From: Solirubrobacterales bacterium
GTDB lineage: Bacteria > Actinomycetota > Thermoleophilia > Solirubrobacterales > Solirubrobacteraceae
Direction of reading: 5' to 3'
Length of the DNA stretch: 64,000 bases
Assembly (NCBI GenBank): GCA_027315115.1
Contig: DAHUYQ010000044.1
Coordinates: 1 to 64,000 of the forward strand
Shown: in pieces, positions 32,890 to 36,125 of the stretch
How the letters are laid out: every line of letters starts with the position of its first letter
Position numbering within the stretch: position 1 is the stretch's first letter
The notes under the pieces: model-generated
Databases searched by the model: none
What the model was told of the DNA's origin: nothing
Seen by the model: only the letters and a program-made list of their open reading frames with translations
Made by a program: the position numbers and the translations under genes

Positions 32890-34149
32890 TTGTCCCAGCC
32901 AGTCGTGCATCTCTCGACGGTTCTACGCAGCCCGCTGCTCGACAGGGCTGGGGAGAAGCTTGGTTGCGTGGAGGATCTGATCGTGCGGCTCGCCGACGGC
33001 GGCTATCCGCCGGTCACCGGCCTGAAGGGCAGCATCGGTGGACGTGAGCTCTTCGTTCCGATCGCGAAGGTCGCGGCGCTCGAGCCAGGGGCGGTGCGGC
33101 TCGCGGGCGAAAAACTCTCGCTTGGACGCTTCGAGCGCCGGCCCGGCGAGGTGCTGCTGCGCCAGGACGTGCTCGGCCGCAAGCTCGTGGACGTCGAGTC
33201 CGAGCCACCGCGGCTGGTGACCGCACAGGAGATCGAGCTGGCCTGCATCGAGGGATGGTGGAGGGTGGTCGGCCTGGACGCCAGCCTCGCCGCGCAGGTG
33301 CGCCGCGCGCTGCCGCGCAGGCTGAAGGGGCTCGTGAAGGATCGGCCGTTCCTTGACTGGTCGGACATGGAGCCGTTCGTCGGGCACGTGCCGACCGCGC
33401 GGCTGCGCTTCTCGCATCGCAAGCTCGCCAACCTGCACCCCGCCGAGATCGCCGACCTGGTCGAGGCCGCCTCCCACGACGAGGGCGAGGAGATCATCGA
33501 AGCCGTCCGCCAGGACAGGGACCTGGAGGCGGACGTCTTCGAGGAGCTCGACGAGCACCACCGGCTGGAGTTCATACGCGAGCGCCCCGACTCCCAGGTG
33601 GCGGCGGTGATCGCGCGCATGGCGCCGGACGACGCCGCCGACCTGATCGGCGAGCTCGACCAGGAGCGTCGCGTGAAGATCATCAAGCTGCTGCCGCCGG
33701 CGCACAGGCGCAAGATCGAAGCGCTGCTCGGATACAACCCCTCCACGGCCGGGGGCCTGATGGGCGTCGAGCTCGTCGCGCTCGGCGAGCAGGACACCGC
33801 CGCCGTGGGCGTCGAGCGCGTGCGGCGCAGCGAGATCGCGCCCGAGGCGCTGAACGTGGTCTTCGTCTGCGACGCCGAGGACAGGCTGACCGGGTCGCTG
33901 CCGGTGGTCGCGCTGCTGCGCGCCGCACCGGACACCGCCGTGATCGAGATCGCCGAGCAGGAGCCCGTGTCGGTCGCCCCCGACGCGGACCTGCCCGAGG
34001 TCGCGAGGATGATGACCGACTACAACCTCACCGCGCTGCCGGTCGTGGACGAGGAGCACCGGATCATCGGCGTCATCACCGTGGACGACGTGCTGGAGCA
34101 GACGCTGCCCGCCGGGTGGCGTCGCCGCTACGGCCTGGTCAGCGACTGA
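32890..34149 (+). CDS. PRC-barrel / MgtE_N / tandem CBS protein, probable magnesium-linked regulator
   Basis: A 419-residue soluble protein, TTG start. PRC-barrel-like strands occupy about 10-100 (GEKLGCVEDLIVRL, RQDVLGRKLVDVES). A superhelical MgtE N-domain follows at about 165-285 (LHPAEIADLVEAAS, RMAPDDAADLIGEL, KIEALLGYNPSTAGGLM), then two CBS domains at about 290-410 (VVFVCDAEDRLTGSLPV, LTALPVVDEEHRIIGVITVDDVLE). It has everything of MgtE except the membrane channel. MgtE_N-CBS units sense cytosolic Mg2+, and the next gene is an Nramp-related transporter, so it may gate or accompany that protein. Confidence 0.85.
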   Translation: MSQPVVHLSTVLRSPLLDRAGEKLGCVEDLIVRLADGGYPPVTGLKGSIGGRELFVPIAKVAALEPGAVRLAGEKLSLGRFERRPGEVLLRQDVLGRKLVDVESEPPRLVTAQEIELACIEGWWRVVGLDASLAAQVRRALPRRLKGLVKDRPFLDWSDMEPFVGHVPTARLRFSHRKLANLHPAEIADLVEAASHDEGEEIIEAVRQDRDLEADVFEELDEHHRLEFIRERPDSQVAAVIARMAPDDAADLIGELDQERRVKIIKLLPPAHRRKIEALLGYNPSTAGGLMGVELVALGEQDTAAVGVERVRRSEIAPEALNVVFVCDAEDRLTGSLPVVALLRAAPDTAVIEIAEQEPVSVAPDADLPEVARMMTDYNLTALPVVDEEHRIIGVITVDDVLEQTLPAGWRRRYGLVSD

Positions 34150-34266
34150 CGCGCGGCCGCGTGAGCCGCGGCACGCCGCAAGCGCCTGCTCAGAGCGTGG
34201 TTTCCTCTGCGCTGCTAGGGTGAGCGGCGGCAGAGCCCTTGCAGATCGCGCAGAAAGGAGGCCGGT

Positions 34267-34338
34267 GTGGACGCAGACAGTGAGCCACGAAGTACCACGC
34301 CGGTAGCGCGCACGCCGGGCTTGTCTCCTTCGCTTTAG
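34267..34338 (+). CDS. Candidate 23-residue leader peptide upstream of the Nramp-related gene
   Basis: A GTG start lies 5 bp after a strong AAAGGAGG. The peptide begins with a cluster of acidic residues and proline (VDADSEP) and has four prolines in all before TAG. An alternative GTG two bases earlier gives a 13-codon ORF. In enterobacterial Mg2+ transporter genes, acidic/proline-rich leader peptides such as MgtL destabilise ribosomes at low Mg2+. The parallel is suggestive only. The leader ends 113 bp before the transporter start, with a hairpin between. Confidence 0.4.
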   Translation: MDADSEPRSTTPVARTPGLSPSL

Positions 34339-34395
34339 AGGAATCAGCGGGACAGCTCGCCCCCGCGCCACCGTGCCCGTGATCACACGCGCCGC

Positions 34396-34410
34396 CGCGG
34401 CTCAGCCGCG
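34396..34410 (+). promoter_or_regulatory. Hairpin between the leader ORF and the Nramp-related gene
   Basis: CGCGGC-TCA-GCCGCG forms a six-pair stem 42 bp before the start codon. Together with the leader ORF it could act in attenuation. There is no U tract, so it is not a standard terminator. The wider 34150-34451 region has no other gene; a GCTAGGGTGAGC box at about 34212 is faintly like the opening of the M-box Mg2+ riboswitch but does not continue to match. Confidence 0.35.
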
Positions 34411-34451
34411 CGGAGATGTCACCCGAGCATGGCGAAAGGAGGTCGATTCCG

Positions 34452-36125
34452 ATGTCTGAGAAGAAGAGCGCGGTGAGGGAGGGCGCGCCCGAGCAGGCGC
34501 GCGTCACAGCGCCCGTGCAGGTCGAGGGCGTGCCGCCCGTTCTCGACGAGGCGCACATCGGCGACATCCGCGGCGCGCTCGGGACGATCAAAGCCTCCGA
34601 TCTGGGCGCACGGCACGGCTGGCGCTCCCGCGCGATGGCGCTGCTGGCGATCATGGGCCCCGGCCTGATCGTGATGGTCGGCGACAACGACGCGGGCGGC
34701 GTCTCGACCTACCTGCAGGCGGGACAGAACTACGGCCCGAGCCTGCTGTGGGTGCTGATCCTGCTGATCCCGGTGCTGATCGTCAACCAGGAGATGGTGA
34801 TCCGCCTGGGAGCTGTCACCGGCGTGGGTCACGCGCGGCTTATCAACGAGCGCTTCGGCCGCTTCTGGGGCTGGTTCTCGGTCGGCGACCTGTTCGTGCT
34901 GAACTTCCTGACGATCGTCACCGAGTTCATCGGCGTGAGCCTCTCGCTCGGCTACTTCGGCGTCAGCCGCTACATAGCCGTGCCGCTGGCCGCGGTGGCG
35001 CTGGTCGCGATCACCTCGACCGGCAGCTTCCGAAGCTGGGAGCGCTTCATGTACGTGTTCGTGATCGCCAACTTCCTCGTGATCCCGCTGCTGTTCTTCG
35101 CGAGCCCGAGCTTCGGCGCGATCGCCCACCACACGTTCGTGCCGGGCGTCCAGGGTGGCGCCAGCTCCACGGCGGTGCTTCTGATCATCGCGATCGTGGG
35201 CACCACGGTGGCGCCCTGGCAGCTCTTCTTCCAGCAGTCGAACATCATCGACAAGCGCATCACGCCGCGCTGGATCAACTACGAGCGCGCCGACACGGTG
35301 ATCGGCGCCTTCGTCGTGGTGATCGGCGCGGGCGCGCTGCTGTCCGTGGCCGCCTTCGCGTTCGCAGGCACTCCAGCCGCCGGGCACTTCTCCGACGCGG
35401 GCGCCACCGCGGAAGCGCTGCGCCACTACGTCAGCCCGGTCGCGGGGGCGTTCCTGGCGATCGTGCTGCTGAACGCATCCCTGATCGGCGCCGGCGCGGT
35501 GACGCTGGCGACCTCCTACGCGTTCGGCGACGTGTTCGGCGTCAGCCACTCGCTGCACCGGGGGCTGGGGGACGCGAAGGTCTTCTACGCGAGCTTCTCG
35601 GCGATGGTCGCGCTGGCGGCCGGCGTGGTCCTGATCCCCGGCGCCCCGCTCGGGCTGATCACGACCTCGGTGCAGGCGCTCGCGGGGGTCCTGCTGCCCA
35701 GCGCGAGCGTCTTCCTGGTGCTGCTCTGCAACGACCGCGCCGTGCTCGGGCCGTGGGTGAACCCGACGTGGCTGAACATCCTCGCCTCGGTGATCGTGGG
35801 GGTGCTGGTGGAGCTGTCGCTGATCCTGGTGATGACCACGATGTTCCCGTCGCTGAACGCGGGCGCCGCCTTCCTGTACATGTCGATCGCGCTGGTGGTC
35901 TGCCTGGTGGGTGCGGGCATCTACATCGCCTCCCGCAGGCAGCCTGTGCCCGCGGAGGCAGCGGTCGAGAGGGAGAAGCGGGCCACCTGGACGATGCCGC
36001 CGCTCGCGCTGCTGGAGCCGGCGCGCTGGTCTCCGGGTCGCAAGGCCGCCATGCTGGCGATGCGGGCCTACCTGGTGATCGCGGTTGCGCTGCTGATCGT
36101 CAAGGCGACGCAGCTCGGGCACTGA
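34452..36125 (+). CDS. Nramp-related transporter of the NRMT (magnesium) type
   Basis: A 557-residue protein; ATG preceded by GAAAGGAGG. Eleven or more membrane segments in the Nramp order. In helix 1, the metal-binding DPGN of Nramp proteins is replaced by DAGG (VMVGDNDAGGVSTYLQAG, about 80-83). In helix 6, MPH becomes APW (GTTVAPWQLFFQQSN, about 254-256), removing the methionine that selects transition metals. The same methionine-to-alanine change characterises Nramp-related magnesium transporters. The neighbouring MgtE_N-CBS protein supports Mg2+ as substrate. Assignment is from motifs and context. Confidence 0.85.
   Translation: MSEKKSAVREGAPEQARVTAPVQVEGVPPVLDEAHIGDIRGALGTIKASDLGARHGWRSRAMALLAIMGPGLIVMVGDNDAGGVSTYLQAGQNYGPSLLWVLILLIPVLIVNQEMVIRLGAVTGVGHARLINERFGRFWGWFSVGDLFVLNFLTIVTEFIGVSLSLGYFGVSRYIAVPLAAVALVAITSTGSFRSWERFMYVFVIANFLVIPLLFFASPSFGAIAHHTFVPGVQGGASSTAVLLIIAIVGTTVAPWQLFFQQSNIIDKRITPRWINYERADTVIGAFVVVIGAGALLSVAAFAFAGTPAAGHFSDAGATAEALRHYVSPVAGAFLAIVLLNASLIGAGAVTLATSYAFGDVFGVSHSLHRGLGDAKVFYASFSAMVALAAGVVLIPGAPLGLITTSVQALAGVLLPSASVFLVLLCNDRAVLGPWVNPTWLNILASVIVGVLVELSLILVMTTMFPSLNAGAAFLYMSIALVVCLVGAGIYIASRRQPVPAEAAVEREKRATWTMPPLALLEPARWSPGRKAAMLAMRAYLVIAVALLIVKATQLGH

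Follow-up and report, generated by a model that had tools for sequence, protein, structure and literature searches.

Two adjacent genes at positions 32,890 to 36,125 of a 64,000-nucleotide stretch from a Solirubrobacterales soil bacterium (assembly GCA_027315115.1, contig DAHUYQ010000044.1, positions 1 to 64,000; hereafter the window) encode, on the same (+) strand and in this order, a channel-less protein with the cytosolic sensor domains of the Mg2+ channel MgtE and an Nramp-related magnesium transporter (NRMT)-type carrier. We propose, with moderate confidence, that the two constitute a two-protein Mg2+ uptake unit with feedback by the sensor. Neither the sensor-carrier pairing nor the feedback idea is new: both have been known since 2014, when most nrmT genes were reported to lie next to one encoding the N-terminal cytosolic domain of MgtE and feedback regulation was proposed, with the role of the MgtE-like gene left open (Shin et al., 2014, PMC4072509). 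The window fits this NrmT-MgtE fragment operon, its adjacent gene being homologous to the MgtE N-terminal cytosolic domain; hence, the central idea of an earlier sequence-only reading of this DNA, viz., a detached sensor that gates an unrelated carrier, is a known proposal rather than a new one. The locus is thus a well-conserved member of a known but unexplained pairing, to which the present analysis adds independent evidence that links the sensor module with Mg2+ transport, along with several natural constructs in which this can be tested.

The sensor gene (32890..34149, + strand), which starts with a TTG codon at 32890, codes for a 419-residue protein for which profile, structure and model matches indicate a PRC-like barrel, a second β-rich domain, an MgtE N domain and a CBS pair, without a membrane or channel part. 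Pfam profiles recover MgtE_N (PF03448, E 3.1e-23; residues 182-284, 33433..33741) and CBS (PF00571, E 2e-14; residues about 285-406, 33742..34107), the MgtE channel domain PF01769 is absent from the protein, whose open reading frame (ORF) ends after the CBS pair, and among solved structures the cytosolic domains of MgtE come closest (2yvy, E 2e-28). The sequence-only reading, which equated the protein with exactly the Mg2+-sensing cytosolic parts of MgtE minus the channel, was therefore right in extent. As to its further claim of an added PRC barrel (about residues 4-70, 32899..33099), 11 of 13 relatives match PRC at E 0.01 or better (best E 4e-12), but the window protein itself reaches 18.8 bits, below the Pfam cut-off of 21.2 bits, and the strands of the putative barrel lie in a low-confidence part of the structure model. 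This model, built from ten close relatives (pLDDT 69, moderate), comprises two β-rich parts, the helical N domain and the CBS pair, and its top Foldseek matches are MgtE.

The sensor thus shares with the Thermus MgtE channel (2yvx/2zy9) the N domain, the CBS pair and most of the Mg2+-binding acidic residues, and differs from it in the missing channel domain, the PRC-like and second β-rich domains, and the loss of the ATP-site residues in its clade. In the alignment with Thermus MgtE, D91 and D95 of the N domain and D247 of the CBS pair are kept, with E59 replaced by D, D250 by E and D226 by N. The first three are conserved in essentially all aligned sensor homologs (most of which have D at position 59 and N at 226, and either E or D at 250) and hardly vary, if at all, among the NRMT-paired sensors examined; in MgtE, D91 and D247 form site Mg4 and D95 site Mg6 (PMC5882242). 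The ATP-site positions Y170, R187, D188 and F227 are not kept in the window sensor, and the first three, which belong to the ATP site of MgtE (PMC5529423), are lost throughout its sensor group and mostly retained in the other NRMT-paired group. D226N and F227L were considered as marks of a dead sensor and rejected as such, since true MgtE channels of Thermoleophilia also vary at 226/227. Given the retained Mg2+ ligands, the loss of the ATP-site residues in this sensor group and the variation of channels of the class at these two positions, it is plausible that the window sensor responds to Mg2+ without tuning by ATP.

The second gene (34452..36125, + strand) encodes a 557-residue Nramp transporter of the NRMT type, as indicated by Pfam, structure matches and motifs; its start is probably 34452 rather than 34416, as a AAAGGAGG Shine-Dalgarno sequence stands before the former. 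It matches Pfam Nramp at E 3e-74, scores far below the NCBIfam MntH cut-off, and finds its nearest solved structure in EleNRMT (7qia, E 4e-54), with MntH-type structures at about 1e-12. Its metal-site motifs are DAGG in TM1 (residues 80-83, 34689..34700) and GTTVAPW in TM6 (residues 250-256, 35199..35219), so that D80AGG83 and T251TVA254 match the DxxG-TxxA/T signature of NRMT metal sites (PMC8806188). Together with the structural match, this sustains the earlier observation that DAGG for DPGN and APW for MPH are the changes of NRMT proteins, and supports placing the carrier in the NRMT clade. Canonical MntH/Nramp Mn2+ importers share its fold family but have DPGN and VMPH where the window carrier has DAGG and TVAPW; a separate canonical MntH with DPGN/MPH is encoded on another contig of the same genome. 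With the previously described NrmT/NRMT systems (PMC4072509; EleNRMT, PMC8806188) the locus shares the DxxG-TxxA/T site, the top structural match and the neighboring MgtE cytosolic-domain gene with its proposed feedback role; it departs from them in lacking an M-box, in about 90 extra C-terminal residues, in a conserved N-terminal tail and in a short leader ORF that lies between the two genes. The cytosolic tail (LDxAHxGDIxGAxGTI, 34542..34589, + strand), found by alignment to be conserved in the long NRMT type, was entertained as a dock for the sensor; this was rejected, since the same tail occurs in carriers of Alicyclobacillus and Paraburkholderia that have no sensor next to them, and it is hence not sensor-specific. 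These long-type carriers lie beside cation-transporter genes on plasmids of Alicyclobacillus curvatus (locus L264) and Paraburkholderia kururiensis (L265), the latter also beside a cadR-type regulator and with DAGA for DAGG.

The association of the two genes is strongly conserved. Our survey of 199 Thermoleophilia genomes yielded 74 sensor hits, 54 of which adjoin an NRMT-like gene, all on the same strand and 53 with the sensor first; the other 20 comprise two cut by contig ends, one MgtA fusion, two of a clade with DUF1003 neighbors and 15 of a paralog clade in one family (f6). In a tree of 129 sensors, the window sensor falls in a supported clade of 33, with 30 NRMT-adjacent members and three cut by contig ends. 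Most of the paired NRMTs display DAGG with GT-T-x-(A/T)-P-(W/Y/F), and Nramps with other motifs (DPAG, NDGPS, DAGS/DVGS) are mostly unpaired; pairs without DAGG occur in G113 (DPAG), G086 (DPGG), G054 (DAPG) and, as the second pair of that genome, G117 (EAGS). The prospect that the sensor might occur mostly without NRMT neighbors thus receives a mixed answer at the scale of the phylum, as other sensor clades (the DUF1003-neighbor type and the f6 paralog) lack them, while the clade of the window sensor keeps its NRMT.

Several of the other clades present organizations of their own. In the DUF1003-neighbor clade, a separate clade of channel-less MgtE-type sensors from larger actinobacterial genomes (L228:3132-4966, L241, L242, L248 and about 20 more loci), there is no NRMT; the sensor gene is followed by one for a DUF1003 membrane protein and often by an Mrp-like ATPase gene, which might make for a third type of partner. 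The f6 paralog (L081:4847-6109, - strand, and 14 related loci) is divergent from a membrane permease that is NCS2-like by eye and lies near a calcium/sodium-exchanger-like gene; we rejected it as the partner of another carrier, since its recurrent neighbors, this permease and the cation exchanger, offer no evidence of an operon. Among the Nramp-like proteins, more unpaired clades (L092-L098, L100-L108) carry NDGPS with GATVTPW, DPAG with GTTLAPW, or DAGS/DVGS with GAVVMPW/GAVIMPW. Within the genus of the window, one genome (G186:C13, L111) combines a related sensor with an adjacent carrier of the shorter NRMT type, so that the carrier may have been exchanged and the sensor type retained.

An independent tie between the sensor module and Mg2+ transport comes from gene fusions. 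In three genome bins, G070 (L075:3-3740), G379 (L204:2093-6046) and G417 (L205:1781-5734), all on the - strand, the PRC-MgtE_N-CBS module and a P-type ATPase of the MgtA type form a single in-frame fusion; the open frame spans 1318 codons in the two complete cases, L075 being cut by the contig end. Pfam finds the PRC, MgtE_N, CBS and ATPase domains in one chain in G379 and G417, and the G070 fusion scores above the curated NCBIfam thresholds for magnesium-translocating P-type ATPases. The three fusion sensors form one clade nested among the NRMT-associated sensors in the tree. With G379 and G417 close to one another, they amount to two or more separate cases; since all three genomes are bins, a misassembly may still lie behind the fusions. 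The window locus itself has no ATPase, its link to MgtA lying in these relatives of its sensor. A second set of relatives, five NRMT-adjacent PRC-MgtE-like proteins of about 630 residues (L213, L216, L222, L223, L258), retains a membrane part after the CBS pair that has lost the GGNxGxQ motif and the pore aspartate of MgtE. These pore-dead proteins look like a path from channel to regulator, its direction being presumed and not rooted. A literature search of partial coverage found no description of the MgtA fusion, the pore-dead NRMT neighbors or the leader ORF. The ATPase fusions and the pore-dead MgtE relatives are natural constructs in which to ask if a single cytosolic Mg2+ sensor is able to slow transporters of three unrelated kinds.

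The complement of transporters in the surveyed genomes also bears on the transported metal. In the genome bin of the window, which is 90.65% complete, neither CorA nor an MgtE channel was detected, and MgtA gave no match at E 1e-60. Across Thermoleophilia, CorA is missing from 29 of the 199 genomes, 24 of which, spread over five families, carry the sensor; it is absent from 24/55 sensor genomes versus 5/144 others (Fisher 2e-11, with genomes counted individually and kinship uncorrected) and, counted by genus, from 10/22 with the sensor versus 4/72 others (p 4e-5). This complement favors Mg2+ for the Thermoleophilia pairs and does not settle the substrate of the window carrier. Furthermore, genes for an NRMT, a sensor and an MgtC family protein follow one another on a plasmid of Leifsonia shinshuensis (L269), which we count in favor of a Mg2+ uptake unit. 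The Mg2+ role claimed in the sequence-only reading gains indirect support from the CorA loss in paired genomes, the MgtA fusions of the sensor module and the separate MntH, and falls short as to a preference over Mn2+, as EleNRMT carries both metals and a paired Acidobacterium NrmT restored uptake of Mn2+ and not high-affinity uptake of Mg2+.

Several observations weigh against a Mg2+ uptake unit with a gating sensor. The genome is a bin and not fully complete, and the CorA pattern is weak across the phylum (present in 60/100 genomes with NRMT-type or long sensors versus 281/396 overall), for which reason we rejected CorA absence as a rule beyond Thermoleophilia. Rfam gave no match to the M-box riboswitch in the window or the genome; the M-box lies upstream of only a subset of the NRMT family and is thus not required. 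The remaining points bear on two rival explanations. The first, which we deem unlikely, is that the pair is a manganese uptake unit, with a carrier mainly for Mn2+ import and a sensor that reads either Mn2+ or the balance between Mg and Mn. It would accommodate the finding that the NrmT of Acidobacterium capsulatum, which also lies beside an MgtE-like gene and is without an M-box, fully complemented a Mn2+ transport mutant and complemented Mg2+ only at millimolar Mg2+ (PMC4072509), the additional Mn2+ transport by EleNRMT (PMC8806188), and the close carrier homologs without a sensor beside heavy-metal genes in metal-resistance regions of plasmids. Yet the genome already has a canonical MntH and no other detected Mg2+ importer, the CorA-less Thermoleophilia genomes mostly carry the sensor, and this sensor module also occurs in fusion with an MgtA-type Mg2+ ATPase.

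In the second, which we regard as quite improbable, the pair handles Mg2+ and the sensor acts otherwise than by gating, for example in the stability or assembly of the carrier, as a metal chaperone, or on another partner. The Clostridium acetobutylicum NrmT worked without the MgtE fragment, and co-expression of the fragment was of no help to the A. capsulatum NrmT (PMC4072509); likewise, some relatives of the sensor have DUF1003 proteins, not carriers, as their partners, and carrier homologs exist without an adjacent sensor. Against this, both the MgtA-type ATPase fusion and the pore-dead membrane part beside NRMTs place the module at a transporter. We return to the feedback-controlled Mg2+ uptake unit, and take the new fusions and the gene-loss patterns to make a role of the sensor as a plug-in brake for Mg2+ uptake more likely.

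Under this proposal, the NRMT carrier would, like EleNRMT, let in Mg2+ uncoupled from protons, and probably some Mn2+ as well. The cytosolic PRC-MgtE_N-CBS protein would read internal Mg2+ by the mechanism of MgtE, with Mg2+ bridging the N and CBS domains and compacting the dimer, and at sufficient Mg2+ it would dock on or near the carrier and slow it; the sequences themselves show the families, the motifs, the conserved pairing, the fusions and the leader ORF, and the substrate, the binding of Mg2+ by the sensor, the direct contact, the sign of the regulation and any function of the leader are what we infer here. The short acidic leader ORF before the carrier may add Mg2+ control at the level of translation, as MgtL does for mgtA. 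A more extended scenario, in which a portable module for Mg2+ feedback passed in evolution from the MgtE channel, via pore-dead relatives, to the NRMT and the MgtA-type pump, with MgtL-like leader control of the carrier added in the window lineage, is one we put forward tentatively and think rather doubtful as a whole.

The region between the two genes contains two further candidate elements. Directly after the sensor gene is a promoter-like element, TGCTAGGGT (34213..34221, + strand), which is kept in most close relatives in an alignment of nine; its identification as a promoter is only suggestive, as a sigma-70 scan did not detect it. Downstream, a strong Shine-Dalgarno sequence, AAAGGAGG (34254-34261), precedes the leader ORF (34267..34338, + strand), recognized from the alignment of relatives and start-pattern tests, which has a GTG start and 23 codons for amino acids, with the N-terminus M-D-A-D-S-E-P. 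Its conserved block occurs once each in eight genomes of the genus, always between sensor and NRMT, and in no other genome of the family. The leader shares acidic residues at positions 2 and 4 with MgtL, the leader of mgtA, which has a destabilizing EPDP at residues 2-5 and responds to Mg2+ by ribosome drop-off (PMC11282234); the likeness is one of sequence pattern, and we claim no homology to MgtL. If the leader works like MgtL, it would represent ribosome-based Mg2+ sensing in Actinomycetota before a different transporter family. An M-box or other riboswitch, suggested by the stretch TGCTAGGGTGAGC, was rejected, as Rfam gave no hit in the window and none to the M-box in the genome, and the region folds no better than its shuffles (z 0.85).

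Whether the leader ORF is a regulatory peptide at all is close to an even call, the alternative being a conserved block that exerts control at the DNA or RNA level, or an ORF that is translated but has no function. Its pN/pS of 0.98 in seven close relatives and the block CGAAGTACC, which never varies in nucleotides, give no signal of selection on the peptide and speak for this alternative, as does the lack of unusual RNA folding. A translated regulatory leader is in turn favored by the start and strong Shine-Dalgarno sequence that nearly all relatives have, and by the recurrence of the M-[DE]-x-[DE] start, with different nucleotides, before NRMTs in two other lineages, viz., another genus of the class (L113, L115, and L114 with a TTG start) and family f28 (L249, L256). 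This start pattern was derived from the window before it was tried on other loci: such an ORF is absent from all regions upstream of sensors, and outside the genus it was observed in 4 of 70 regions, against 0.05 in shuffled sequence.

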